Assembly: GCA_020073465.1 (NCBI GenBank)
Contig: JAIQFC010000002.1
Location: 186,001-250,000, forward strand
DNA length: 64,000 nt
Source of the DNA: Terriglobia bacterium
GTDB lineage: Bacteria; Acidobacteriota; Terriglobia; Terriglobales; Acidobacteriaceae
Direction of reading: 5' to 3'
Position numbers and translations under genes: made by a program
Part shown: positions 1-14,200 of the stretch, piece after piece
Layout: each line of letters starts with the position of its first letter
Position numbering within the stretch: the stretch's first letter is position 1
The notes under the pieces: model-generated
What the model saw: only the letters and a program-made list of their open reading frames with translations
Told to the model about the DNA's origin: nothing
Databases searched by the model: none

Positions 1-748
1 CGCGGCCCTGGTCGACGACCGCCAGCTTCGACCACCACCGTTTGGGCGTGCCGTCGGTGTAGGTCTCCTCTCCGGTTGAGTCGCAACGTACGGCGAAGGG
101 CATGGATTTCACGGCGCCACTGCGTAACGCGACTTCGTTGCTCTGTGAGCCAGGGGTCAGCGTGAGGAATCCGTGCCAGCCGTAAAGCGCGTCCACGATG
201 CCTCCGAGAAAGATCAGCAGGAGGCTGGCGTGCACGATGTATACCGCCATCTCTGAAATGCGGTTGCGCTCGGCGAAAAGCGAGAAGCTCCGGGTCCGCA
301 CAATTCTTTCCGACCTCAAGCCCAGGTGCCGCAACGCATGTTCGGCCGCGCCCAGCCCTTGCTCCTCATCGGCGATCGGAATCTGGGCTTGCGTCGGCAA
401 TACTCGACGGAAATTCTCGTCGGGACTCTTGTAGGGACGAGCGAAGTACCGCCAGGAGTTGGGGAAGCGCTGCACCGACGCCGCGATGATGCTCAGGCTA
501 ACCAAAACCAGCAAAGAGACGAACCAGCGGGCATGGAACACGTCGGTGAGCCCAGTAATATCGAGGATGCGCAGCATCTGCGGCGAGTAGGCGCGCTGCA
601 TGTCGTCTGGCTCCGTCATCGGACGCTGCAGAATCACCGTGCCAGCAGCGGAGAAAATCACGACCAGGATGATGAGAACCACGCCAGTCTTGATGGAACT
701 GAGGGTTTGCCAGATTTTGCGATACCCGGAGCGAAGTGACAGAGCCAT
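1..748 (-). CDS. resB: Cytochrome c biogenesis protein ResB, N-terminal part (runs off left edge)
   Basis: ResB is the inner-membrane partner of ResC/CcsA in system II cytochrome c maturation, which keeps apocytochrome thiols reduced and helps attach haem outside the membrane. About 249 codons are visible from the ATG at 746-748 on the minus strand, preceded by GAGGAAAG as ribosome binding site. The start of the protein reads MALSLRSGYRKIWQTLSSIK, then a hydrophobic helix (VVLIILVVIFSAAGTVIL), a second helix (WFVSLLVLVSLSIIAASV) followed by QRFPNSWRY, and a third near the left edge (YIVHASLLLIFLGGIVDALYG). This helix-helix-soluble-helix order fits ResB. The frame stays open to base 1, so the C-terminal half lies outside. 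It is divergent from the multihaem cytochrome cassette, whose products need haem attachment. Confidence 0.88.
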   Translation of the reverse strand, partial: MALSLRSGYRKIWQTLSSIKTGVVLIILVVIFSAAGTVILQRPMTEPDDMQRAYSPQMLRILDITGLTDVFHARWFVSLLVLVSLSIIAASVQRFPNSWRYFARPYKSPDENFRRVLPTQAQIPIADEEQGLGAAEHALRHLGLRSERIVRTRSFSLFAERNRISEMAVYIVHASLLLIFLGGIVDALYGWHGFLTLTPGSQSNEVALRSGAVKSMPFAVRCDSTGEETYTDGTPKRWWSKLAVVDQGR

Positions 749-1143: not shown

Positions 1144-2619
1144 ATGCTACGCGGATGCACAAGCCGACCGAGTTCGAGCCTGCGGGCGAGCTGCCAGCGA
1201 ACCACGGCTATTCTGCCCTCCCTCATTCTGTCCCTTGTCGCCGCGGTTACGCCGACATTTGCCAAGACCCACCCGGTTCCGCTCGACAAGAACGTTGATG
1301 CGGCGAAGTGCCTCGAGTGTCACGAAGATAAGACCAATGGAAAAGCAGTTCACTCGGCGATCGCTGCGGGATGCCTGAGCTGTCACGAAGTTCGCACGGT
1401 TCGCGATGTCACGCATATCAAGCTGACGGAAGTCACGCCGGTCAAGCTCTGTCTCCAATGCCACGCCGACAAAGATGCGACACAGATTAAGGGACAGATC
1501 CACCCGCCCGCAGTTCGAGACTGCCTCAAGTGCCACGACCCCCATACTTCCGCCAATAAGAATCAGTTGCTGAAGCCTGTATCCGGAAGCAAAGGCGAGA
1601 ACCTCTGTCTGCAATGCCATGCGATTGGCGTGAACTCACCGGAGAAGGGCAGCCACCACGCCGCGCTCGACATGGGATGCGACACGTGCCACGTCACGCA
1701 CAAGACCGGCGCCAGCTCGGAGCGCGAATTCAAGTTCCACCTGACCAAGACCTCTCCCGCTCTGTGCCTTGATTGCCACGACGCGAAGGACGCGGCCCTG
1801 GCAAAGGCGCATCACGGTCAGCCATTCGAGAAAGCGGACTGCCTGGCTTGCCACGATCCTCACGAGTCAGCCCGTCCGAAGCTGATCCAGAAGTTCGTGC
1901 ACATGCCGTTCGGCGAGGGACAATGCGAGGTCTGCCACCAGGCGCCGAAGGACGGCAAGGTGGTTCTGACCGCCGCCAACGCGAAAGCCCTCTGCGTAAC
2001 CTGCCACGACGAGCAGGCCAAGCAGATTGACAACGCCAAGTTTCCACATCCGGGAGCCGCTGGCGATTGCACCGATTGCCACAGCCCGCACGCTGGGAAG
2101 ACGCCGGGATTTCCCAAGCCTGATCCGGTGAATGCATGCCTTGGCTGCCATTCCGACCTAAGCGATCAGTCCAAGAAGCACGTGCTGCATCAGCCTGCGT
2201 TTGGGCAGGGCTGCGCGACTTGCCACCAGCCGCATGGCGGAGACAACGACCACCTATTGCGGGTGAACGGCAATGCCCTCTGTCTGGAGTGCCACGGAGC
2301 CGACTCGCGGCCACAGAGGCTCGAGGCCGAGCATGTGCTCACGATTTTCAACGGAAAAGTGAAGCTGCCGGAGGATTACTACCAGAAGAACAAGGTCGTA
2401 GTTCTCCCTCTGAGATATGGACTCGGACACCCGGTGCAGCTTCACCCGGTTCAGGACGTGATGGACCCGACCAACATCGGGAAGATCAAGACTTCCATTA
2501 ACTGTATGACCTGCCATCAGCCGCATTCCTCGGCGAAACCGGGATTGCTGGCGAAGGATCAGGAAAACAACATGGCTTTCTGCGACAACTGCCACAAGGA
2601 CAGAACCCAACTGCGCTAG
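1144..2619 (+). CDS. 16-haem periplasmic/outer-surface cytochrome c
   Basis: This is a 491-residue secreted multihaem cytochrome. I count sixteen CXXCH haem-attachment motifs, many followed by D/S/Q-P-H as in doubled CXXCH (paired_CXXCH) repeats, for example CLKCHDPH, CLACHDPH, CTDCHSPH, CATCHQPH and CMTCHQPH. The N-terminus has a signal-peptide core (ILPSLILSLVAAVTPTFA), with cleavage predicted near residue 40. The frame is closed by a stop at 1111, so the ATG at 1144 is the first available ATG, though its ribosome binding site is poor. It heads a cassette with NHL propellers, more cytochromes, a chaperone and an outer-membrane barrel, so an electron-transfer role across the cell envelope is inferred. 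The closest named relatives cannot be settled here. Confidence 0.9.
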   Translation: MLRGCTSRPSSSLRASCQRTTAILPSLILSLVAAVTPTFAKTHPVPLDKNVDAAKCLECHEDKTNGKAVHSAIAAGCLSCHEVRTVRDVTHIKLTEVTPVKLCLQCHADKDATQIKGQIHPPAVRDCLKCHDPHTSANKNQLLKPVSGSKGENLCLQCHAIGVNSPEKGSHHAALDMGCDTCHVTHKTGASSEREFKFHLTKTSPALCLDCHDAKDAALAKAHHGQPFEKADCLACHDPHESARPKLIQKFVHMPFGEGQCEVCHQAPKDGKVVLTAANAKALCVTCHDEQAKQIDNAKFPHPGAAGDCTDCHSPHAGKTPGFPKPDPVNACLGCHSDLSDQSKKHVLHQPAFGQGCATCHQPHGGDNDHLLRVNGNALCLECHGADSRPQRLEAEHVLTIFNGKVKLPEDYYQKNKVVVLPLRYGLGHPVQLHPVQDVMDPTNIGKIKTSINCMTCHQPHSSAKPGLLAKDQENNMAFCDNCHKDRTQLR

Positions 2620-2639
2620 GTCTGTGGAGGAGAATCGAG

Positions 2640-3911
2640 ATGTTTACGGTTTGCTCAAATTCGATTCGCAGGGGCAAGGCGGCGGTGACCCTGATCATCC
2701 TGCTGGCTCTCGCACTGGCATCGCCGGTTTCGCTCTACGCCAAGAAGAAAAAAGTCGCGCCGGAGAAACCCAAGCAGCCGGACCGGCGAGCGATGCTGGC
2801 CAAGATCGACACTTCCAAGCTGGTCTGGCCCAGCCCGCCCAACATCGCCCGCATCCGCTACATGAACTACTACGCGGGCATGAAGATCGACTACAGCCGG
2901 GACACCAAGAAACCAAAGCAGAGCTGGATGGATCGTCTGGCCGGCACCGAGACCAAGGGCCAGAGGCAGATCGAGAAGGACTTCCCCTTCCAACTCCTTG
3001 GTCCTTACGGCATTGCCATCGATTCCAAGGGCCTGGTTTACGTAGCTGACCAGAAGGTGGGCGCGATCTTCATCTTCAACACGGAGACGCGTGATGTTCA
3101 GCTGATTCGCAACGGGTACGAGGCGCATTTCGGACTGGTCAACGGTGTAGCCGTCGACGATGACGACCGTCTGTTCGTTTCCGATGGAAAGTTTCACAAG
3201 GTGCTGGTCTTCAATCCCAAGCATGAGGTGGAGAACCAGATCACGGAAGGTTTGGTGGATCCGGTCGGTCTGGCCATCGACACCGAAAACCGAATTCTTT
3301 ACGTCGTGGATACCCAGCAGGACCAGGTGATTGTTTACGACGCGGACAGTTTGAGGCTCCTGCGCCGGATTGGTACCGGCGGGAAGACTCACTATCTGAC
3401 CACCCCCGGGGATTTTGCCGCGCCGTCGAACGTGGCGCTCGACCAGGATGGAAATGTTTACGTCACCGACACGTTGAACAACCGCGTGGAAATCTTCGAC
3501 GCCGAAGGCAAATTCATCCGTGAGTTCGGCAAGCACTGCGATGGTCCGGGATGTTTCGCGCGCCCCAAGGGAATCGCCATCGACAGCGATGGCCATGTCT
3601 GGGTGGCCGATGCCTACCTGGATGCGGTGCAGGTCTTCACTCAGGACGGGGAACTCATGGGCTATATGGGCGGACACGGGGACCTTCCCGGACAGTTCGC
3701 GGCGCTGATGGGCATCGCCGTCGACAAACAGAATCGCGTTTTCACCACCGAGCAGTATCCGGGGCGCATGCAGATGTTCCGCTACATCACCGACGCCGAA
3801 GCGGCCGCAGAAAAGGCGCGCCGCGAGGTGGAACAAAAAAAGAAAGCGGACAGCACCACCGGAAAGAAAGTCGAGGCACAGGCTAATGTGCAAGAGCCGG
3901 CAAGACAGTAG
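2640..3911 (+). CDS. Secreted NHL-repeat beta-propeller protein (first of two)
   Basis: This 423-residue protein has a signal peptide (hydrophobic core TLIILLALALASPVSLYA, then a lysine-rich stretch). From about residue 120 it has repeated NHL strands of the type GIAIDSKGLVYVADQ, GVAVDDDDRLFVSD, NVALDQDGNVYVTDTLNN and GIAIDSDGHVWVADAY, about six blades. The C-terminal tail is charged and Lys/Ala-rich. GGAGGAGAATCGAG precedes the ATG by a good distance. It follows the 16-haem cytochrome by 20 bases. NHL propellers are protein-interaction scaffolds. Their repeated presence beside multihaem cytochromes suggests a role in assembling or docking the conduit, which is inference. Confidence 0.88.
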   Translation: MFTVCSNSIRRGKAAVTLIILLALALASPVSLYAKKKKVAPEKPKQPDRRAMLAKIDTSKLVWPSPPNIARIRYMNYYAGMKIDYSRDTKKPKQSWMDRLAGTETKGQRQIEKDFPFQLLGPYGIAIDSKGLVYVADQKVGAIFIFNTETRDVQLIRNGYEAHFGLVNGVAVDDDDRLFVSDGKFHKVLVFNPKHEVENQITEGLVDPVGLAIDTENRILYVVDTQQDQVIVYDADSLRLLRRIGTGGKTHYLTTPGDFAAPSNVALDQDGNVYVTDTLNNRVEIFDAEGKFIREFGKHCDGPGCFARPKGIAIDSDGHVWVADAYLDAVQVFTQDGELMGYMGGHGDLPGQFAALMGIAVDKQNRVFTTEQYPGRMQMFRYITDAEAAAEKARREVEQKKKADSTTGKKVEAQANVQEPARQ

Positions 3912-4023
3912 CGCGAGAGTTCCCGGGCTGCCTTGGGGCAGGCGGAACGGAGATGGGCATAGCCGGCAAAAGCCCAAATCCGAGACGTAGCAGTAGGCAC
4001 TAGTCGTACTGAGTAGAAGTAAC

Positions 4024-4035
4024 GTGTTGCAACAC
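4024..4035. promoter_or_regulatory. 12-base perfect palindrome upstream of the tetrahaem cytochrome gene
   Basis: GTGTTGCAACAC is a perfect dyad six bases before a strong AAGGAGGT ribosome binding site (4041-4048) for the gene at 4058. It could be an operator or a small mRNA hairpin. No matching regulator is identified. Confidence 0.35.
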
Positions 4036-4057
4036 ATCATAAGGAGGTCTTAAAGCA

Positions 4058-4942
4058 ATGAGGAAAACGTTCATGGTACTGCTGATGGTCTTCGCCATCG
4101 CAGGCCTTGCAGTGGCGCAGATTCAGGCTCCGACATCGGACGTCCTGGGCGCGCACCTGAACTATGGTCGCGGTTGCGCAGCATGTCATGCTCCGCACAG
4201 CGGCGTATACGGCAACGGCGGCGCCAAGACGGCTGACACCACCGCGGGCAACATCGCGCTGTGGGGCCAGGACGTAGGCGACTTGTTCGGAAAGACGATC
4301 GTTACCGGTCAGAGCGAGCATGGAAGCTACAGCGAAACTCTGCCCGCGAGTTGGGATCAAACCCGGCCCGACACCGCAAATCTCCTGACCTGCTTGAGCT
4401 GCCACGACGGCAACTACGCACAGGGCGCCATGATGAAGAACACGGTGTGGGAGAGTCTGCCCAGCACCTACGGCACCTACAACACCATTCCCACCCTGCT
4501 CGGGGCTGACCCCACGGGGACGGGCAACTACCTGAACGACCACCCGGTGGGCACCAACGCCATTGTCGGCTGCGGTGGCACCTATGACTGGGACTGCACC
4601 ATCGACGCCACGGGCAAAATCCTGATGACGGGAACCGGTTCCTCTGCATTCGTGAAGAACTATGGTTTCTTCGTCTCGACTAAAGCCTACAACAACCAGC
4701 CAACGGTCATGTGCACCACCTGCCACAACCAGCACTTGATGAATGCCTTCACCATCAAGAGCGGCGCGACCAACACCGGCCTGCCGGCAGGGACCTACGC
4801 GACCATGTTCTTCCTGCGTGGTCCGTATAACCCCTGGAGCGCTGGCGCGAACGTGAACCAGACGGCGCAGTTCTGCCGTCAGTGCCATGGTGGCGAGGCC
4901 AACGAAATGAACGGTGGCCTGAACATTCCAACCACCTTCTAA
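4058..4942 (+). CDS. Tetrahaem cytochrome c, secreted
   Basis: This 294-residue protein begins with a clear signal peptide (MRKTFMVLLMVFAIAGLAVA). It has four CXXCH sites: CAACH at residue 40, followed by APHSG, then CLSCHDG, CTTCHNQH and CRQCHGG near the C-terminus. Its first two haem sites match the start of the larger cytochrome at 8971 (CLYCHAPHSG, CLSCHDG), so the two are probably paralogous in their N-terminal parts. A strong AAGGAGGT precedes the ATG and the 146-base gap upstream may hold a separate promoter. It is part of the cytochrome/NHL/barrel cassette. It is likely a periplasmic or surface electron carrier, exact partner unknown. Confidence 0.88.
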   Translation: MRKTFMVLLMVFAIAGLAVAQIQAPTSDVLGAHLNYGRGCAACHAPHSGVYGNGGAKTADTTAGNIALWGQDVGDLFGKTIVTGQSEHGSYSETLPASWDQTRPDTANLLTCLSCHDGNYAQGAMMKNTVWESLPSTYGTYNTIPTLLGADPTGTGNYLNDHPVGTNAIVGCGGTYDWDCTIDATGKILMTGTGSSAFVKNYGFFVSTKAYNNQPTVMCTTCHNQHLMNAFTIKSGATNTGLPAGTYATMFFLRGPYNPWSAGANVNQTAQFCRQCHGGEANEMNGGLNIPTTF

Positions 4943-5008
4943 CCATTCACTGGGGAGAGCGAAAGCTCTCCCCACTTCTTAAGTTTGTGGCAGGAGTGAG
5001 GAGGAGCG

Positions 5009-6028
5009 ATGAGGCAACAGTTAACACTGATCGTCCTGGTCCTGGCGGGACTGAATCCGCTGTCGGCCCAGCTCATGTCCTCCCACGCTCCCACTCCAGT
5101 AACAAAGCCCAGCACCGCCAGCATGCAATCAGCCGGCAAGCCGGTGGCACGGGTGAACGGCACGATTCTGACGGAGCGCGACCTCATGCGTGAGGAAATG
5201 ACCATCTTCCCGTACGCGCGGCAGCACAACGGCAGCATCCCCAAAGAGATGGAGCCGGGCATCCGCAATGGCGCGATGCAGATGATCGTCTTCGAAGAAC
5301 TGGTTTACCAGGAAGCGTTGCGCCGCAAGTTAACGGTGACACCGGTGAAGCTGCAACGCTCCGAAGCACAATTCCGTGCCCAGTTTCGCAGCGAGCAGGA
5401 GTTCCAACAATTTCTGCAAGGTGAGTGTCAGGGTTCGCGGCAGTTGCTGCGTGACCAGATCCGCCGCTCACTGCTGATCGATACACTGCTCAAGGCCGAG
5501 GTGGAAAGCAAGTCGGCGGTTTCGTTGGTCGAAATGAGAGCGTACTACGACCAGAATCCCATGGCATTTGAGTACCCCGAATCATTCGCCATCCAGACAA
5601 TTTCCTTTATCCCGCCGCAGAACGCGACGTCCGAGCAAGTAAAGGAAGCGCGGAAGCGGGCGGAGAGCGCGCTCCCACAGGCCAGGGCCACCAAGAGTTA
5701 CGAAGAGTTTGGGCTGTTGGCCGAGAAGATTTCGGAAGACGACTACCGCGTGATGATGGGCAATCACAAAGCCGTGGATCGGGCCAAGATGGCGCCTCAA
5801 TTGGTGCAGGCATTGTTGGCCCTGCAGCCCGGCCAGGTCAGCGACATCATCCAGGTCGAGCAGATCTACACCATCGTGCGTCTGAACCAGCACATTCCCG
5901 CGGGCAAGACGAAATTCGAAGCTGTGAAGGATCAGATCAAGACGGAACTCGAGAAGAAGAAGACGAATCAAGTTCGCGCCGCTTTCGGAAAGAAGCTGCG
6001 GCAGAGCGCAAAGGTCGAAATTCTGTAA
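5009..6028 (+). CDS. SurA/PpiC-like periplasmic peptidyl-prolyl isomerase
   Basis: This 339-residue secreted protein has a signal peptide (LTLIVLVLAGLNPLSA), a SurA_N-like chaperone region (VARVNGTILTERDLMREEM near residue 50) and a C-terminal parvulin-like region (about 185-300, ending in LQPGQVSDIIQVEQIYTIVRL). Such proteins help fold and insert outer-membrane barrels or secreted proteins. It lies directly upstream of a barrel gene, so a dedicated chaperone for that barrel or for the cytochromes is a reasonable inference. GGAGTGAGGAGGAGCG precedes the ATG. Catalytic residues of the isomerase fold are not obvious, so it may act mainly as a chaperone. Confidence 0.82.
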   Translation: MRQQLTLIVLVLAGLNPLSAQLMSSHAPTPVTKPSTASMQSAGKPVARVNGTILTERDLMREEMTIFPYARQHNGSIPKEMEPGIRNGAMQMIVFEELVYQEALRRKLTVTPVKLQRSEAQFRAQFRSEQEFQQFLQGECQGSRQLLRDQIRRSLLIDTLLKAEVESKSAVSLVEMRAYYDQNPMAFEYPESFAIQTISFIPPQNATSEQVKEARKRAESALPQARATKSYEEFGLLAEKISEDDYRVMMGNHKAVDRAKMAPQLVQALLALQPGQVSDIIQVEQIYTIVRLNQHIPAGKTKFEAVKDQIKTELEKKKTNQVRAAFGKKLRQSAKVEIL

Positions 6029-6050
6029 CGCGGCGAAAGGTTGGCATGCA

Positions 6051-7889
6051 GTGCGCGGTCCTCGACAAAACGCCGGCTGGTGGCTGACCGGGTTCCTGCT
6101 GTTGACCCTGCCGGCGGCAGCGCAGGTGCAGGTCGGCGACAATCTGAGCCTGAATCTGAAGGGAGTTGTGGACGGCGGGTATTCCGGAGCTTATGGAGAC
6201 CTCATCAGTTCCTCTCACAGTCTGAACTTCGGCGGCGACGGCGCCCTGACCGGTTCTTACTACAGTCCTAACTTTCTGAACTTCAACTTTTCTCCTTACT
6301 ACAACCGGTCGGGAGCCAGCTCGAACTTCCAGTCGATCACCCGGTCGAGCGGCTTCGATTTCTCGAGCGGGATCTTCAGCGGCAGCCATTTCCCCGGTTC
6401 GGTCAGCTTCGCTAAGGCTTACAACAGCCAGGGGAGCTTCGGCGTTCCGGGACTCGCGGATTTCACCACGCATGGGAACAGCAGTACCTTTGCCATCAAC
6501 TGGAGCGAACTGATTCCCGGTCTGCCCAGCCTTACCGCCGGTTTCCACAAGGGGAGCAGCGAATATTCCATCTACGGGGCCGATGGGACCAGCAGCAGCA
6601 CGAATCAGGGGTTGAATATCCAGTCCGGATACACGCTTGCCGGATTCAATATGAGCGCCAACTACACGAACGGCACTTCGGAGGCGGCGTTTCCCGAACT
6701 GCTCAGTGGCTCATCGCAGGTCGAGAAGACGCACATGAACAACAATGGGTACGGTGTAGGAGTTGGGCACCGTCTTCCGCTGCGTGGCCAGTGGTCGCTG
6801 AACTTCAACCGGATGAATATGGACGATGATTTTTCCGGCTACCACTTCAATGGCACCGTCGACACCGTTTCCACCGGCGCGGGCGTGCAGCCGACGAACA
6901 AGCTGCGCTTGCTGTTCAGCTCGAATTATTCCGACAATTTGAGCGCCACTTTGAATCAATCGGCGGAGAGTTCGGGCGTGCTTCTGGTTGTGCCCAACCA
7001 GCAATCGTCCTCTCATGCGATGGATATAAGCGGCACCGCGATATACGACATCGTACGAAATCTGCAAACCCAGGGCTTTGTCGAACGCCGCATGCAGTCT
7101 TTCCTGGGCCAGACTTTCGGAGCCAATACCTACGGCGGCGGAATCACGTTCGCGCACGGGTTCCTCGGCGGCAACTTCAACACTTCGGTCACGGTCGCCG
7201 AGAACACGATTGATCAGGCCGATGTGAAGACGCTCGGTTTCACTACGAGCGCGAACTACAACCGCCGCATTGGAGCCTGGTACGTCGGGTCCTCGTTCAG
7301 CTATGCCCAAAACGTGCAGACCCTGCTCATCACCTATATGAACTCGTACTACAACTACTCGGGTCACGTGAAACGCCGGGTCGGAAAATTTGTCTGGAGT
7401 ACGGGAGCCTCCTTTGCCAAGACCGGCCTGACGGCCCAGCACGGCACCGACAGCAGTAGCGAGAGTTTCTCCATGGGTATGGGGTACAAGAATTGGGTCA
7501 GCGCGAACGGCAGCTACGCGAAAGCGACTGCCAACGGGCTAGTGACTGCCACGGGGGTGATACCGACTCCGCTGCCGCCGGTCATTCCTTCCGATCTACT
7601 GATACTCTACGGCGGCACCAGTTACTCGGTTGGATTGTCAAGTTCAGCGTTTCGGGGATTCACCGCTTCGGGAAGCTTTTCGCACGCTTTGAGCAACACG
7701 CTGAACACTGGAGTCGGAAGCTGGAACAAGACCGAACAGTATAATTTCCTGGTGCAGTATCAGTTTCGCAAGGTTTACCTGACGGGCGGGTATGCGCGGT
7801 TGTTGCAGGGGTTCAGCGCTTCTTCAACCCCGCCCGGCACAGCATCGTCATTCTCGATTGGGGTATCCCGGTGGTTCAATTTCTTCTAG
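6051..7889 (+). CDS. Outer-membrane beta-barrel protein of the cytochrome cassette
   Basis: This 612-residue protein has a signal peptide (WWLTGFLLLTLPAAAQ), then long stretches of alternating polar/aromatic strands rich in Ser, Gly, Asn, Tyr and Phe (for example GSYYSPNFLNFNFSPYYN). It ends in SIGVSRWFNFF, a terminal Phe as expected for BAM-inserted barrels. A GTG start at 6051 is used. It has no CXXCH. It lies between the PPIase and the second NHL gene, 22 bases after the former and overlapping the latter by 19 bases. By analogy with porin-cytochrome conduits (MtrB or OmbB with their cytochromes) it may be the sheath that lets haems span the outer membrane. Homology to those families was not tested. 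Confidence 0.85.
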   Translation: MRGPRQNAGWWLTGFLLLTLPAAAQVQVGDNLSLNLKGVVDGGYSGAYGDLISSSHSLNFGGDGALTGSYYSPNFLNFNFSPYYNRSGASSNFQSITRSSGFDFSSGIFSGSHFPGSVSFAKAYNSQGSFGVPGLADFTTHGNSSTFAINWSELIPGLPSLTAGFHKGSSEYSIYGADGTSSSTNQGLNIQSGYTLAGFNMSANYTNGTSEAAFPELLSGSSQVEKTHMNNNGYGVGVGHRLPLRGQWSLNFNRMNMDDDFSGYHFNGTVDTVSTGAGVQPTNKLRLLFSSNYSDNLSATLNQSAESSGVLLVVPNQQSSSHAMDISGTAIYDIVRNLQTQGFVERRMQSFLGQTFGANTYGGGITFAHGFLGGNFNTSVTVAENTIDQADVKTLGFTTSANYNRRIGAWYVGSSFSYAQNVQTLLITYMNSYYNYSGHVKRRVGKFVWSTGASFAKTGLTAQHGTDSSSESFSMGMGYKNWVSANGSYAKATANGLVTATGVIPTPLPPVIPSDLLILYGGTSYSVGLSSSAFRGFTASGSFSHALSNTLNTGVGSWNKTEQYNFLVQYQFRKVYLTGGYARLLQGFSASSTPPGTASSFSIGVSRWFNFF

Positions 7890-8971
7890 GCCGACCGCGC
7901 AGGAGATCCCTGTATATGGTTCTCAGCCTGGTCTGTGCCTCGGTGCTGTTGTCGACACCGGCCTGGGGAGCGCGTCAACCCAAGGTTAAGTCGGCAGAAC
8001 CGGCCCCGCCCGACCTTTTGCTCGAAGGTGGGCGCAGGCTTACATTCGAGCGTACCTTTGGCTCGGAACGGGAAGTCAAGCCGAAGCGCGGCTTCTGGAA
8101 GCGCATGCTGGATGTCGTCGCCGGCGAACCCAACTTCAAGGTCTTGATCCGTCCCTACAGCGTAGTCACCGATTCCCGCGGGCGCATCATCGTGACCGAC
8201 CCGGGGGCAGCCGGGATCCACATCTTCGACTTTGCGGGGCAGAAGTACAAGTTCTTTTCGCGCCGCGATAAGGAGAAAGACGCGATGCTGGCGCCGCAGT
8301 GTGTCGCGGTCGATACGGAAGACAACATATATGTGACCGACTCGGAAGCGGGGAAGATCTTTGTCTTCGACTCCAACGGAAAATACCAGCGGGCGATCGG
8401 CAGCATTAAAGGCGGGGAAGGCTACTTCAAGCGTCCCACCGGAATCGCCGTGGATTCCGCCGCACAGCGCATCTATGTGACCGACACTCTGCGGAACAAG
8501 ATCTTCATGCTCGACCTGCAGGGAAGCGTTCTGCAGGTGATCGGACAAAACGGCGGTGGCAACGGAGAATTCAACTTTCCCACGGAAGTGCGCCTCGACG
8601 AGCAGAATCTGATCGTTGTGGACGCCATGAATTTCCGCATTCAAACGCTGGACCGTTCCGGAGCTTTCCGCTCCTCCATCGGACAACTCGGCGACAGCAG
8701 TGGCGCGATGTTCCGGCCCAAAGGCGTCGCGATTGATTCCGAAGGCGATCTCTATGTGGTGGAGGGCTTGTGGGGAATCGTGCAGGTCTTCAACCGCCAG
8801 GGCGATCTCCTCTACTACTTCGGTAAGCGGGGGACAGGCGCGGGACAGTTCCAACTTCCGGCGGGACTGTTCATTGATCATGACGACCGCATCTTTGTGG
8901 TTGATTCCATCAACCGCCGTATCCAGGTCTTCCACTACTTCGGAATTAAGCACGGGAAGGAAGGAATGTAG
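7871..8971 (+). CDS. Secreted NHL-repeat beta-propeller protein (second of two)
   Basis: This 366-residue protein has an N-terminal signal/anchor (MVLSLVCASVLLSTPAWGA) and at least five NHL strands, such as CVAVDTEDNIYVTDSEAGK, GIAVDSAAQRIYVTDTLRN, GVAIDSEGDLYVVEGLWG and GLFIDHDDRIFVVDSINR. Its start overlaps the end of the barrel gene by 19 bases and its stop overlaps the next cytochrome start by one base, so barrel, propeller and cytochrome are translationally coupled. It is shorter than the first NHL protein of the cassette and lacks the charged C-terminal tail. Probably a periplasmic or surface scaffold; function inferred from context only. Confidence 0.87.
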   Translation: MVQFLLGRPRRRSLYMVLSLVCASVLLSTPAWGARQPKVKSAEPAPPDLLLEGGRRLTFERTFGSEREVKPKRGFWKRMLDVVAGEPNFKVLIRPYSVVTDSRGRIIVTDPGAAGIHIFDFAGQKYKFFSRRDKEKDAMLAPQCVAVDTEDNIYVTDSEAGKIFVFDSNGKYQRAIGSIKGGEGYFKRPTGIAVDSAAQRIYVTDTLRNKIFMLDLQGSVLQVIGQNGGGNGEFNFPTEVRLDEQNLIVVDAMNFRIQTLDRSGAFRSSIGQLGDSSGAMFRPKGVAIDSEGDLYVVEGLWGIVQVFNRQGDLLYYFGKRGTGAGQFQLPAGLFIDHDDRIFVVDSINRRIQVFHYFGIKHGKEGM

Positions 8972-10881
8972 TGCGGCCGCGATATCAATTTGCGAGTCTG
9001 ATGATCGTGCTCACCGCAGGAAACCTGCTGGCACAGGTTACCGGAGACGTAATTGGAGTCCACAATCTGGGGCCGGGAAGCAAGTCTCCGGTGACCGGAG
9101 CGCGGCCGGACTTTTGCCTCTACTGCCATGCTCCGCATTCCGGCATCGGGGGCAGAACGCCGCTGTGGAATCAAACGCTGTCCACCCAGGTCTATACGAC
9201 TTATACGAGCACCACCGAGCAGAACAAGGGCGCACAACCGGTTTCGGGCGCTGACACCAGCCTCTGCTTAAGTTGCCACGATGGCACCGTCGCGCCCGGT
9301 ACGACGGCCGTCTTTGGCAACGTGACCACGAGTGGGGCCATGTACACCTCAGATATTCTTGGGACCAACCTGCAACCGTCGCATCCCGTCAGCCTTGCCC
9401 TGCCGCTGAAGGACTCGCCGGACCTGGTGGCATCATTGGTGCCGCAGGGAAAAACGGCCGATCCAACTGGGGCGGTGAGGCTGGTGCAAGGGAACATCGA
9501 ATGCACCAGCTGTCATAATCCGCACGTTCAGACAAAGGATGTGATCTCGCAGAACTTTCTGGTTCGGGATAGTTCCAACGGGCAGATGTGTCTGGCCTGC
9601 CATGATCCAACCCGCCAGACTCCGGGGCAGGTGAACATTCTGACCGGATGGCCGACCAGCATCCACGCTACGGCCTCCAACAAGGTAACGCCCCAGGCGA
9701 ATGTGGGAAGCTATCCGACCGTGTCCCAGGCGGCCTGCATTGGCTGTCATATGCCGCACAACGCGCCAGGCTCGTCGCGGTTGCTGCGCGGCGCCAATGA
9801 ACAGGATTGCCTGGCCTGCCACAGCGGAGGCTCCAATATCACGCCCGCGCCGCTGAGTGTGGCTGCCGAGTATGCGCAACCCAAGATCGGGCATCCTCTG
9901 CCTTCGGCGAACAACCAGCACGACGCTTCCGAAGCTGCTCTTCTCAATACGAACCGGCATGCCACCTGCGTAGACTGCCATAATGCGCACTCGTCGATTA
10001 ACGTCGCGACCTTCACGCCACCGCCAGCGGTACGGCTGTCCCAGAGCGGCGTCACTGGTATCAGCGCGACGGACGGCGTGACCGTTCTGAATCCTGCTGT
10101 CAATCAGTACGAAAACTGCCTGCGCTGCCACGGCACGAGCGCGGGAAAAGCGGGGAATGCAATCTTCGGATATCTGCCGATACGCGCGGTGTCTGCCGGA
10201 GATCCGCTGAACCTGATTCCTCAATTCGCCAACACGGCGTCTTCCAGTCATCCCGTGATGCATGTACGCAGCAGCTTGTTTCCACAGCCCAGCCTGATTC
10301 CGAACATGCTGAATCTCGATGGGGTCACGCAGGGACGGGCGATGGGTACGCAGCTGTTCTGCACCGACTGCCACAATAGCGATGACGCTCGTGAGTTCGG
10401 CGGCACGGGCCCCAACGGTCCGCACGGCTCCAAGTGGACGCACATCCTCGAGCGGCAATACCTGTTTAGCCAGGCGCCCGCGCCGGGGCAGATGATTACC
10501 AACTTGTATCCCACGCCCGATCTAAGCGTGAACGGACCTTACGCGCTGTGTGGAAAGTGTCACGACCTGCCGAACCAGATTCTGAGAGACACCAGCTTCA
10601 AGGAGCACGCAGAGCACATCAATACCGGGTTCAGCTGCTCGGTGTGCCACACCGCTCATGGCATGGGTGCGACCAGCGCAACCATCAGCGGCGAACGGCT
10701 GGTGAATTTTGACGTTGGTGTCGTGGCGCAGAATGGGGCCACGCCGATCTCTTATAGCCGGGCTGCCAATACCTGCGTGCTCGCTTGCCATGGCGCTGCT
10801 CACAATCCGGACGGCACTGTGACCCCCGCCGCAACTCCTACCAAGATACAAGGCAGTCCTCCGGTGCGAATCCTGAAATAG
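8971..10881 (+). CDS. Large multihaem cytochrome c (11 CXXCH plus one CX3CH)
   Basis: This is a 636-residue protein with a GTG start, one base overlap with the upstream NHL gene, and a signal peptide (ASLMIVLTAGNLLAQ). Haem sites in order: CLYCHAPHSG, CLSCHDG, CTSCHNPH, CLACHDP, CIGCHMPH, CLACHSG, CVDCHNAH, CLRCHG, CTDCHN, CGKCHD, CSVCHTAH and finally CVLACHG, a CX3CH variant. Long Ser/Thr/Asn/Pro-rich spacers separate the sites, unlike the compact 16-haem protein at the start of the cassette, which suggests a surface-exposed terminal reductase. It resembles the tetrahaem gene at its N-terminus. It ends the cassette; no terminator is evident. Confidence 0.9.
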   Translation: MRPRYQFASLMIVLTAGNLLAQVTGDVIGVHNLGPGSKSPVTGARPDFCLYCHAPHSGIGGRTPLWNQTLSTQVYTTYTSTTEQNKGAQPVSGADTSLCLSCHDGTVAPGTTAVFGNVTTSGAMYTSDILGTNLQPSHPVSLALPLKDSPDLVASLVPQGKTADPTGAVRLVQGNIECTSCHNPHVQTKDVISQNFLVRDSSNGQMCLACHDPTRQTPGQVNILTGWPTSIHATASNKVTPQANVGSYPTVSQAACIGCHMPHNAPGSSRLLRGANEQDCLACHSGGSNITPAPLSVAAEYAQPKIGHPLPSANNQHDASEAALLNTNRHATCVDCHNAHSSINVATFTPPPAVRLSQSGVTGISATDGVTVLNPAVNQYENCLRCHGTSAGKAGNAIFGYLPIRAVSAGDPLNLIPQFANTASSSHPVMHVRSSLFPQPSLIPNMLNLDGVTQGRAMGTQLFCTDCHNSDDAREFGGTGPNGPHGSKWTHILERQYLFSQAPAPGQMITNLYPTPDLSVNGPYALCGKCHDLPNQILRDTSFKEHAEHINTGFSCSVCHTAHGMGATSATISGERLVNFDVGVVAQNGATPISYSRAANTCVLACHGAAHNPDGTVTPAATPTKIQGSPPVRILK

Positions 10882-10982
10882 GCGCATTGTGTCGGCTGCT
10901 TACTGATGCAGGCACACGCCGCCGGGACCGGAGTCCGTCCGAGTGGGACCGGGAAAGCGCGGTCTCTAGTTGTTTATGACTC

Positions 10983-11451: not shown

Positions 11452-12366
11452 TTACCGGACAGTGCCGGGATAGTAGTAACCGCCTTGGCAGCGGAATGTC
11501 AGGTTCAGGTTGTGAGTGGGAAGGATGCGGACGTTGTGATAACCAGCCGCGCGGCTCGGCAGTTGATAGGTGACGGTGTAGGTTGCGTGGAAGTCTTCGA
11601 GCACCGCATTCAGAACTTTGCCGGCGTCGTCTACTGTGTAGTAGCGGCCACCGGTGGCGTTCGCGAATCTCCGAAGAACGGACTCTCCGCCGGAACTCGA
11701 ACTGGCCGTAGCAACAGCGTAGATCTGGATTTCGTTCGCCATCGCCGCCTGCAACGCGTCGGCAGCGGCATGTTGGCTGATGGTGTCCTCACCGTCGGAA
11801 AGCAGAATGAGTACCTTCCGGGCATGGGCGTCCGCCCGTTGCGCAAGCAAGTCCACCGCGAAAACAACGCTGTCGTACAGCGGCGTCAATCCCTCCGGCC
11901 GCGCTGGAAGCTGCCCGGAGGCATGCCCTGTCCGGCAGTTTCCCGCGCAGGCGAGCGTAGGCCGTTGACGTTGGAAGGACACGATCGAGAAATTCTCTTC
12001 CGGTACACCCTGGGTTTGATTCACGAACCACGTAACGTTGGCAATCTCGCGGGGAAGCTGTGTGCGGATCGATCCGCTGGCGTCGACCAGGATTACGAGT
12101 TCGAGCCGGGTGAATTCGGCCCGCTGGAAACTGCGCGGATGACGGACGATCCGGTCTGTGTCAACAATGGCGAAATCACCCGCCTGGAGAGTGGCGATCC
12201 CGTGGTCGTTCTGATCGGTCGCAGAAAACGTCAGCTGCACCTCCGCCACGGTGGTGTGGTAGGTGGACTCGGGAGCATCTCCCGGGTTGCCAAGCGCGAG
12301 GCCGCAAGCGGTGAGGAACACCAGAGGGAGGGTCCAAGCGCGCCTGTTTGTGAGAGACACACCCAC
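11452..12366 (-). CDS. VWFA-domain protein, probable lipoprotein
   Basis: This 304-residue protein has a von Willebrand A domain with an intact MIDAS metal site: DASGS (DxSxS), a Thr in GLTPLYD, and an Asp in LLSDGEDT. The N-terminus (WTLPLVFLTACG) has a plausible lipobox, so it may be membrane-anchored facing the periplasm. It belongs to a secreted VWFA-related type that is frequent in Acidobacteriota. Role unknown, likely adhesion or protein-protein contact. It is followed closely by the small secreted gene. Confidence 0.82.
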   Translation of the reverse strand: MGVSLTNRRAWTLPLVFLTACGLALGNPGDAPESTYHTTVAEVQLTFSATDQNDHGIATLQAGDFAIVDTDRIVRHPRSFQRAEFTRLELVILVDASGSIRTQLPREIANVTWFVNQTQGVPEENFSIVSFQRQRPTLACAGNCRTGHASGQLPARPEGLTPLYDSVVFAVDLLAQRADAHARKVLILLSDGEDTISQHAAADALQAAMANEIQIYAVATASSSSGGESVLRRFANATGGRYYTVDDAGKVLNAVLEDFHATYTVTYQLPSRAAGYHNVRILPTHNLNLTFRCQGGYYYPGTVR

Positions 12367-12549: not shown

Positions 12550-13221
12550 CTATTGGGCTGAGGACTGGGCCGCTGTTCCGGGCTTCACGCCGGCATGCTT
12601 CTTTGCCTGGGCCATCAACTGCTCGACTTTGTCTCTGGCTTCGTAGTTTGGATTCGTATCCAGCAACTTCTGCCAAGCCGCTACAGCGCCGTCGATGTCC
12701 ATCTTTCCCTGCCACTTCACGATCCCCAGGTTGAAGAGCGTATTCGGTTTCTGCGGTTCGTAGGTGAGAGCCTTGTTGAATTCGTCGATCGCGGTGTCGG
12801 GGTTACCCAGATACCAGTAGGCGGTCGCCATGTCGGTCCGAATCGCCGCATCCGATGGCCGGGACTTCAGCGCGCGCTGGTAATACTCGATCGCCGGCTG
12901 GTATTGCTGTGCGTCGTAGTAGAAGTTTCCTATGCTGGCCAGCAGTTCCGCATTGTTGGGATCGCTTTTCAGTTTCTCAAGTAACGGCGCTGCCTGCACG
13001 TCCGCCATTCTCTTGAGTTGATCGGGCGTGGGCTGGGCGCCTGCGTCCATCGACACCGGCGGGGCCGCACTTGCGCTGTTTACTGGCGCCGCGGATGCCG
13101 GAGACTGCGACCCACGAAACAACCATCCGCCCCCTACTCCTACAAGCAGGCAGATTACAGCCAGCGTGTACGCTTGCACGCCGGTCCAGTTCTCGGAAGC
13201 TGCGTTCTTCTGATCTGACAT
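12550..13221 (-). CDS. TPR protein with N-terminal membrane anchor (paralogue 1)
   Basis: This 223-residue protein has a short cytoplasmic tail, a transmembrane helix (AYTLAVICLLVGVGGGWLF), a Pro/Ala/Ser linker, then TPR helices from about residue 85 (LLASIGNFYYDAQQYQPAIEYYQRAL and following repeats). It shares its plan and many residues with the next gene: MSD start, xxxAV.CL.VG...G.LFRGS.SP, and tails with NPNYEARDKVEQL versus NPKLADDKKVEVQKL. The gap between the two is 13 bases. Tandem duplication is likely. TPR anchors scaffold complexes; the partner is unknown. Confidence 0.82.
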   Translation of the reverse strand: MSDQKNAASENWTGVQAYTLAVICLLVGVGGGWLFRGSQSPASAAPVNSASAAPPVSMDAGAQPTPDQLKRMADVQAAPLLEKLKSDPNNAELLASIGNFYYDAQQYQPAIEYYQRALKSRPSDAAIRTDMATAYWYLGNPDTAIDEFNKALTYEPQKPNTLFNLGIVKWQGKMDIDGAVAAWQKLLDTNPNYEARDKVEQLMAQAKKHAGVKPGTAAQSSAQ

Positions 13222-13234
13222 GGACTCGCACTCC

Positions 13235-13909
13235 TTATGGTTCTGCGCTGTTGTTCAGGCCACTATGCCGCTTCGCCTGGGCAATCAACTTCTGGACTTC
13301 GACCTTCTTGTCGTCGGCCAGCTTGGGATTCGATTTCAGCAACTGCTGCCAGGCGGCCACCGCCCCGCCCGCGTCCTTCTTTCCGTGCCACTTGATCATG
13401 CCGAGATTGAACAGGGAATTGGCATCCTTGGGGTCGTACTTCAGTGCCTGCTGCAACTGGCTGATGGCGCCGTCGATATCGCCTTCGTAGTACAGGCATG
13501 AGGCCAAATCCGCCCGCACCGCAACGTTCTTTGGATCGGCTTGCAGGGCCCTCTCGTAGTACGCAGCAGCTGCCTTGAACTGATGGGTCGCTTTGTAGAG
13601 TGTGCCGACCTGGTTCAGCAGCGCCGGATTATCAGGATCGGCCTTGAGTTTTTCCAGGAAGGGTTCGGCCTTCTTGTCGGCCATCTGCTTCATCTGCTCG
13701 AGGGTCGGCATCCCGCCCATGCCGGTACTTGCAGTAGCCGCCGCGGTCGCAGTGCCAATCGATGGCAGAGCGGGAGCATAAGGCGACTCTGAACCCCGAA
13801 ACAGATAGCCCAGCGCGAGCCCGACTGCCAGGCAGACGACTGCCATGGCGTAGGCGTGTGCGGGCTTCCACTGCGCTCCGACCTTAGAGGGGATCGATGG
13901 GTCGCTCAT
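13235..13909 (-). CDS. TPR protein with N-terminal membrane anchor (paralogue 2)
   Basis: This is about 224 residues if translation starts at the ATG ending at 13909 (MSDPSIP). That start matches the MSD start of its paralogue; a start 12 codons further upstream is possible. It has one transmembrane helix (AVVCLAVGLALGYLFRG), an Ala/Thr-rich linker, and then TPR units (LLNQVGTLYKATHQFKAAAAYYE and following). It is upstream of, and probably co-transcribed with, its paralogue. Function unknown. Confidence 0.8.
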   Translation of the reverse strand: MSDPSIPSKVGAQWKPAHAYAMAVVCLAVGLALGYLFRGSESPYAPALPSIGTATAAATASTGMGGMPTLEQMKQMADKKAEPFLEKLKADPDNPALLNQVGTLYKATHQFKAAAAYYERALQADPKNVAVRADLASCLYYEGDIDGAISQLQQALKYDPKDANSLFNLGMIKWHGKKDAGGAVAAWQQLLKSNPKLADDKKVEVQKLIAQAKRHSGLNNSAEP

Positions 13910-14200
13910 AGGAATCACAACAGCAAATCGCACGCAGACTGCCAATTGCGCGTATGCAGCGTCGTCCTAACTTGTGTCATTGCAGTCGCTTAGAGGGTCT
14001 CTGAGGAGGGTCCGCTGTCCGGGGACCAGTTGCTCGCGCCTTTCCGCGCAGCCCTTGGGCCATTTCCCCCTCCTCGACGGAGAATCTCAGCGGATGGGAA
14101 GGATCGAGACTGGCTTGCATCCGGCATTGTCTTGACGAAGCGTGCGTGCGGGTGTACCGTTCGCCTCCGCTGGCAAATTCCGACAATTGAGGAGGCTGTT

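Follow-up and report, generated by a model that had tools for sequence, protein, structure and literature searches.

A seven-gene cytochrome, propeller and barrel cassette in an acidobacterium resembles Uet and OmcE-type extracellular-cytochrome loci

Results

Architecture of the cassette

The window analysed here, a stretch of 64,000 nucleotides from a Terriglobia bacterium of the family Acidobacteriaceae (contig JAIQFC010000002.1), contains a cassette of seven open reading frames (ORFs), designated A to G, that spans positions 1144–10881 and runs in one direction on the plus strand. ORF A (1144–2619, 491 aa) encodes a cytochrome with 16 CXXCH motifs and a signal-peptide-like start that is DmsE/MtrA-like by profile, and it is followed by an NHL beta-propeller protein, B (2640–3911, 423 aa; PF01436, E 5e-26), in which a simple pattern scan found no lipobox. 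C (4058–4942, 294 aa) is a tetrahaem cytochrome with four CXXCH motifs, a divergent OmcE-like member and putative filament subunit, and D (5009–6028, 339 aa) is a PpiC/SurA-type peptidyl-prolyl isomerase with Pfam matches to rotamase and SurA_N families (PF13145, E 1e-13; PF13624, E 7e-9). E (6051–7889, 612 aa) is a predicted outer-membrane barrel with 28 predicted strands and a C-terminal Phe. A second NHL beta-propeller protein, F (7871–8971, 366 aa; PF01436, E 1e-23), overlaps both E and G, and G (8971–10881, 636 aa) is a UetJ-like cytochrome with 12 candidate haems. The gaps between successive genes are 20 bp (A–B), 146 bp (B–C), 66 bp (C–D), 22 bp (D–E), −19 bp (E–F) and −1 bp (F–G).

An earlier note on this DNA had described seven same-strand genes, and all were recovered at the expected positions, with Pfam supporting the two NHL proteins and the isomerase. 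Its haem counts of 16, 4 and 12 hold as they stand for A and C; in G the figure of 12 is reached as 11 CXXCH motifs and one CXXXCH. Six-frame, stop-to-stop frames no shorter than 60 aa contain 33 CXXCH motifs across the window, of which A, C and G hold 31; chance does not explain such a haem density. Divergent from A lies resB (2..748, minus strand; PF05140, E 1.4e-46), which the same note had also placed beside the cassette. The window edge cuts this gene, leaving 249 of its 484 aa inside; the whole gene is seen in L103 (loci and genomes are cited by working numbers where they must be told apart).

Relation of the tetrahaem protein C to OmcE

OmcE is a subunit of Geobacter nanowires, and Uet stands for undecahaem electron transfer. 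Comparison loci came from the 80 best among 556 relatives of G in named genomes, and locus counts therefore describe the loci nearest to G, not all of them. A tetrahaem pattern of exactly four CXXCH motifs, with CXXCHxPH before CXXCHDG, was found in 55 proteins from 50 of the 80 loci. The tetrahaem protein of L078, a Uet-like locus, matches OmcE (PDB 7tfs) at E 8e-27 over nearly its full length and PDB 9yuq at 2.5e-20. Of the solved structures, the latter stands closest to the tetrahaem family of the window; it is a 218-aa protein recorded as 'putative multiheme cytochrome c', with 16 chains in the entry.

A 56-row tetrahaem profile matches 7tfs at 1e-43 and 9yuq at 1e-41. Because this profile includes closer relatives, the fairer test is the comparison of the seven-member C subfamily with 18 distant OmcE-like tetrahaems, which gave an hhalign probability of 98.8 (E 7e-17), against 28 for a 16-haem control. 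The subfamily profile matches 9yuq at E 2e-5, and BLASTP relates C to the tetrahaems of L063, L075 and L078 (E 2e-6 to 8e-6). Exactly four His residues outside the motifs are conserved at ≥95% in both sets (7 and 18 sequences), which would suffice to ligate four haems in bis-His fashion. C thus combines four CXXCH motifs and four further conserved His residues with homology detected in three ways (profile–profile comparison, 9yuq profile match and BLASTP), and these comparisons place it, through intermediates, in the OmcE-like tetrahaem family. Direct matching to 7tfs, as expected of a strict OmcE orthologue, was not found for C; since OmcE is reached only via intermediates, we name C OmcE-like and not OmcE.

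The N-terminal His33 of C (codon 4154..4156, plus strand) is invariant in the subfamily alignment. In OmcE and OmcS, one haem-ligating His comes from the neighbouring subunit (PMC12307469). By analogy, His33 is a candidate inter-subunit ligand, and a His of C may cross between subunits to bind haem. C is more likely a subunit of a filament than a plain component of a conduit.

An OmcE-like module in the 12-haem protein G

Residues 4–214 of G (8980..9612, plus strand) align with OmcE-like tetrahaems over 200 columns (hhalign probability 99.9, E 2e-36), and the G profile matches 9yuq at E 9e-16; these alignments identify an OmcE-like tetrahaem module at the start of the protein. At its other end, the CXXXCH motif (residues 602–607; 10774..10791, plus strand), a candidate twelfth haem site, is kept in all 77 of the 77 homologues from the 80 loci that have exactly 11 CXXCH, a count that excludes proteins with 9, 10 or 12 CXXCH. 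In an alignment of 78 sequences, the twelve haem His residues are conserved at 1.00 (rounded), together with 14 to 16 other His residues at thresholds of 0.97 to 0.90. The motif count of G agrees with that of the Gallionellaceae UetJ cluster, for which 11 and 12 motifs were counted with CXXXCH included (PMC10734462).

A tree of 143 tetrahaem modules (free tetrahaems, OmcE-type proteins and G modules) requires three label changes, where the minimum is two and the shuffled mean is 48.8; a single G module, L069_Gn9869, lies outside the main G group. The deep forks of this tree are weakly resolved and its root serves for drawing only. Given three changes against 48.8, the simplest reading is that an old duplication gave rise to the free tetrahaem and the G module.

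The barrel E and the 16-haem protein A

Structure prediction bears out the barrel proposed in the earlier note: the model of E forms a barrel whose long strands number 28 on the DSSP line, at a mean pLDDT of 81.5. Its nearest solved fold, narrowly, is MtrB (Foldseek E 1.4e-9, next 1.2e-7), a barrel of 26 strands. The structural Z-score to MtrB is 15.5 over 454 residues, compared with 13.8 for VDAC and 13.6 for LptD, and because both of these score within 2 Z we do not take the match as homology. By sequence, E has no Pfam or NCBIfam match and no PDB profile match, which places it outside the MtrB family on that measure; on the same ground, an Ext-type or OmcB-type conduit was rejected. E-type barrels are, however, related to the distant barrels of Uet-like loci (hhalign probability 98.2, E 4e-14, 298 columns), whereas E against the PF16930 porin of the window and against the presumed Mtr-like barrel of its own genome gave probabilities below 1 in single-sequence controls, which are weaker than profile–profile comparisons.

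A scores 170 bits against the TIGR03508 profile, below the cut-off of 192, and its family keeps 16 haem His residues and 17 other His residues in all 8 aligned sequences. Because the MtrB match of the model is narrow and A falls below that cut-off, we regard the seating of A in E as plausible only.

Conservation of gene order

A single-protein search with E found matches in 6 of 396 genomes of the phylum, its own included, and all seven genes are present in each of the five relatives. One of them, G171, carries A-B on the downstream side of G and has an additional tetrahaem gene. Two of the 80 loci, L032 and L044, were taken as repeats of L012 and L010 of this earlier set, and the two sets are not summed. 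A profile of 29 E barrels, some from the same family as the genomes searched, matches 84 of 300 family genomes, corresponding to 62 of 208 good genomes and 33 of 79 genera. Among the 84, G399, G257 and G539 are weak members at 1e-12 to 5e-9, and G073 and G526 are partial at 1e-30.

By BLAST, the E-type barrel occurs in 29 of the 80 loci. The labelled plus-strand order ABCDEFG is found in 13 of these 29 (in one of them, L021, A is split into two frames) and CDEFG in 23, while A-B are placed after G in L014, L016, L017, L019 and L020. A complete ORF A was recognised in 17 of the 29, every one with 16 CXXCH. On the opposite strand, resB stands beside A in 9 of the 13 ABCDEFG loci; L027 and L044 have less than 650 bp of DNA on that side of A, and L038 and L041 show no resB match in the 1.8 and 2.4 kb beside A. 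The earlier note had offered loss of synteny among barrel, NHL and cytochrome genes as grounds for abandoning its reading, and the order has instead been kept.

By record title, the 80 loci come from Acidobacteriota, Verrucomicrobiota, Planctomycetota, Bacteroidota, Pseudomonadota, desulfobacterial groups, Nitrospirota and others. In 74 of them the 11/12-haem gene is immediately preceded by an NHL gene. The NHL gene is also present in L034, L051, L060 and L080, where the called ORF start of G overruns it, and none was located just before the 11/12-haem gene in L055 and L074. Barrels were detected by profile in 73 of the 80 loci (E type in 34, distant-locus type in 44); six of the seven barrel-less loci span only 4.9–12.4 kb, and the seventh, L040, spans 21.8 kb. 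The isomerase profile matches 32 of the 80.

The Occallatibacter savannae record (strain AB23) carries C to G, with an A-like gene followed by a B-like NHL gene elsewhere (L151, G714:C1 near 164957). Its 16-haem gene is broken in that record by an in-frame TGA, either real or a sequencing error. Several Acidobacteriota have a second tetrahaem copy near G (L008, 8187–9083, minus strand; L014, L015, L016, L018 and L020), inverted in all but L020.

OmcE-type loci of Geobacteraceae

An OmcE-like match was found in 31 of 60 genomes of the Geobacteraceae, the family of L071, and ten regions of 15–18 kb each were hand-picked from these 31. Eight of the ten (L141, L142, L144, L145, L146, L148, L149 and L150) contain a 9-haem gene, an 8-haem gene, an NHL gene, an OmcE-like tetrahaem gene and another NHL gene, L143 is a lone tetrahaem and L147 has a Uet-like set. 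The 9-haem gene scores 230–243 bits against the A profile. The locus profiles were built from our own best-hit labels, and the one for A combines cytochromes that differ in haem number. Two of the tetrahaems have OmcE matches, with E-values of 8e-60 and 5e-62. Pfam confirms a ResB gene and a cytochrome assembly gene in one region; in others these are recognised by sequence start.

Genomic surroundings

The host genome comprises 5.9 Mb in 67 contigs with 99.99% completeness. A promoter and terminator scan gave fewer sites than the shuffle means (1 versus 3.1 and 7 versus 9.8); one terminator-like site lies at 10945, 3′ of G, and we place no weight on it. Beyond the window on the minus strand (L103, 3888–10249), resB is followed by ccsB and a sensor histidine kinase gene, together with a MazE/PemK toxin–antitoxin pair and a sigma-54 response regulator; response regulators, recognised by sequence start, also lie near some Uet-like loci. 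Downstream of the cassette, the minus strand carries a VWA-domain gene of the acidobacterial TIGR03436 type (11452–12366) and two adjacent tetratricopeptide genes (12550–13221 and 13235–13945) with weak matches to CcmH-type repeats, which look like a tandem duplication.

Elsewhere in the genome, a DmsE-family decahaem gene (G000:C13; L104, 4356–7694, minus strand), above the TIGR03508 cut-off, adjoins a 785-aa gene without a Pfam family. The pair is presumed to form a second, Mtr-like conduit, and thus the cassette need not be the only one. On another contig (G000:C15; L107, 7513–11741), Rieske and cytochrome b genes identified by Pfam precede those of a 9-haem and a 4-haem cytochrome and may form an entry point from quinol to multihaem cytochromes.

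Discussion

A nanowire-plus-conduit reading

We interpret the cassette as an Acidobacteriota variant of a Uet/OmcE-type extracellular-cytochrome locus that combines a nanowire with a conduit and most likely serves electron export, and hold this reading with slightly better than even confidence. It builds on the gene set, the conserved order, the placing of C among OmcE-like tetrahaems through intermediates, the OmcE-like module that opens G and the relation of E to the barrels of Uet-like loci, all of which sequence comparison establishes. The narrow MtrB fold match and the adjacent resB also leave a trans-outer-membrane electron system, as the earlier note had envisaged, the likeliest general reading.

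By analogy with the osc operon, the cassette would provide for both assembly and conduction. ResBC would load haem, and the isomerase D may assist the folding of the secreted parts. The outer-membrane barrel E would enclose A, the MtrA-like 16-haem protein, as a wire, or pass C out, or do both. We infer that C polymerises outside the cell into a bis-His tetrahaem filament, to which G, which has an OmcE-like head plus eight more candidate haems, could serve as an adapter or cap that connects filament and membrane. The propellers B and F may shape or anchor the filament, and electrons would probably leave the cell, with iron or humic matter as examples of acceptors.

Several observations weigh against this interpretation. 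C alone, in a single-sequence PDB search, retrieved neither 7tfs nor 9yuq, 7tfs was likewise missing from the matches of the C subfamily profile, and it was unlisted for the G profile at E 1e-5. The C subfamily sits on a long branch of the tetrahaem module tree, and the AlphaFold model of C is weak (pLDDT 66), its fold search giving only chance PDB matches. MtrB exceeds VDAC by only 1.7 Z and LptD by 1.9 Z as a match to E. No trihaem gene, judged by CXXCH count, occurs among the cassette ORFs. In loci with the distant barrel type alone, the isomerase profile matches only 4 of 39, so that D stands mainly beside the E-type barrel in this sample. Across the eight Geobacteraceae regions, neither an isomerase nor an 11/12-haem gene was found, and the 740–807-aa protein of that family (five aligned) showed no detectable relation to E or to the Uet-like barrels (probabilities 8.6 and 10.4), so that kinship with E is not supported.

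Alternative explanations

The cassette might encode a porin–cytochrome conduit free of filaments, in which A would sit in E as MtrA does in MtrB and the surface cytochromes C and G would pass electrons singly, as proposed for Uet. The DmsE/MtrA-like character of A and the fold of E agree with this scheme, as does the description of Uet as a porin–multihaem complex (PMC10734462). However, the tetrahaem family finds its two best PDB matches in the filament protein OmcE and in 9yuq, and the isomerase and propellers recall the osc nanowire operon (PMC13194489). We consider a filament-free conduit possible but rather unlikely.

A comparably doubtful alternative is that E acts solely as the secretion channel of the filament subunit and contains no cytochrome, with electrons crossing elsewhere, for instance through the Mtr-like pair presumed on contig C13. 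Both that decahaem gene with its 785-aa neighbour and the proposed part of OscE, OscF and OscG in OmcS secretion (PMC13194489) would fit such a channel. However, the 16-CXXCH protein A shares its locus with the barrel in 17 of the 29 barrel-bearing loci, which suits a partnership, and among the others several have the DNA cut or A elsewhere (L018).

A role in oxidising Fe(II) or in taking up external electrons, which has been proposed for the Uet of Tenderia and Gallionella, appears improbable. Uet has been considered in the context of bacteria that oxidise cathodes or iron (PMC10734462, PMC13386937), but the 99.99% complete genome has no match to RuBisCO, the one carbon-fixation enzyme searched for, which mildly favours export; uptake could also run without carbon fixation.

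Implications

Within the nanowire-plus-conduit interpretation, we put forward, tentatively and with low confidence, that the UetJ-type 12-haem protein is a general nanowire socket, in which an OmcE-like module joined to eight haems would receive a filament of its tetrahaem paralogue head-on and be wired to the outer-membrane conduit. The pair of free tetrahaem and fused module would stem from an ancient duplication and have been kept across many phyla, with a strongly diverged version in Acidobacteriota.

The cassette links the Uet undecahaem clusters and the OmcE nanowires, which have been described separately, into one locus family, and it suggests how a nanowire could attach to the membrane. 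It also provides a concrete candidate for extracellular electron transfer in soil and peat Acidobacteriota. Acidobacteria were proposed as iron reducers in a metagenome study of Arctic peat, in which neither MG-RAST annotation nor TBLASTX is reported to have found genes for OmcE, OmcS or OmcZ (PMC3669403). A 2026 cave study describes porin–cytochrome complexes in Acidobacteriota and one group of complexes centred on undecahaem or larger cytochromes, the phyla of that group being unstated in the available text (PMC13264449).

Three points may be new: that a Uet-like cluster connects to OmcE, that the 12-haem protein has an OmcE-like head and a constant CXXXCH, and that Acidobacteriota carry a 16-haem variant. 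No statement linking Uet to OmcE was found in the literature searched, although key Uet, OmcE and osc papers lay outside that search and prior publication is possible.

Comparison with known systems

The earlier note considered the cassette not obviously of the MtrCAB, OmcB or Ext kind. This stands insofar as E has no sequence family match, and it falls short in that known counterparts exist in the Uet cluster and the OmcE-type nanowire loci. A wholly new kind of conduit was rejected in view of the Uet gene list and the related loci.

Like MtrCAB, the cassette has a large barrel near an MtrA-like multihaem gene, and MtrB provides, by a narrow margin, the nearest solved fold of E; unlike MtrCAB, it lacks an MtrC-type decahaem, and E has no Pfam, NCBIfam or PDB sequence match. 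Shen is said to have identified, in 2025, the osc factors as an isomerase, channel proteins and a propeller. The osc (omcS companion) operon is proposed to supply factors for the folding (OscH), secretion (OscE, OscF and OscG) and morphology (OscD) of OmcS (PMC13194489, PMC12977616), functions to which the cassette is likened by description only (PMC13194489). It differs in that OmcS is a hexahaem protein and GSU2495 (oscI) has 26 haems (PMC12977616). The OmcE locus of Geobacteraceae shares with the cassette an OmcE-like tetrahaem between NHL genes and an A-like 9-haem cytochrome, along with ResB and a cytochrome assembly gene in the one region checked by Pfam, but differs in that no isomerase or 11/12-haem gene was found in the 15–18 kb covered and in that its 740–807-aa protein shows no detectable relation to E.

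The Uet cluster of Ca. Tenderia and Gallionella comprises a tetrahaem, a peptidyl-prolyl isomerase, a barrel, NHL proteins, a cytochrome with 11/12 motifs and the trihaems UetDEG (PMC10734462). The cassette likewise brings together a tetrahaem, an isomerase, a barrel, two NHL proteins and an 11/12-haem cytochrome, the Uet set of Tenderia being known by gene list, and relatives of C, E, F and G occur in the gammaproteobacterial loci L063 and L075. Uet has three trihaems where the cassette has a 16-haem protein, and C and E of the cassette are strongly diverged. With a 16-haem gene in place of the trihaems UetDEG, the cassette is classed as Uet-like.

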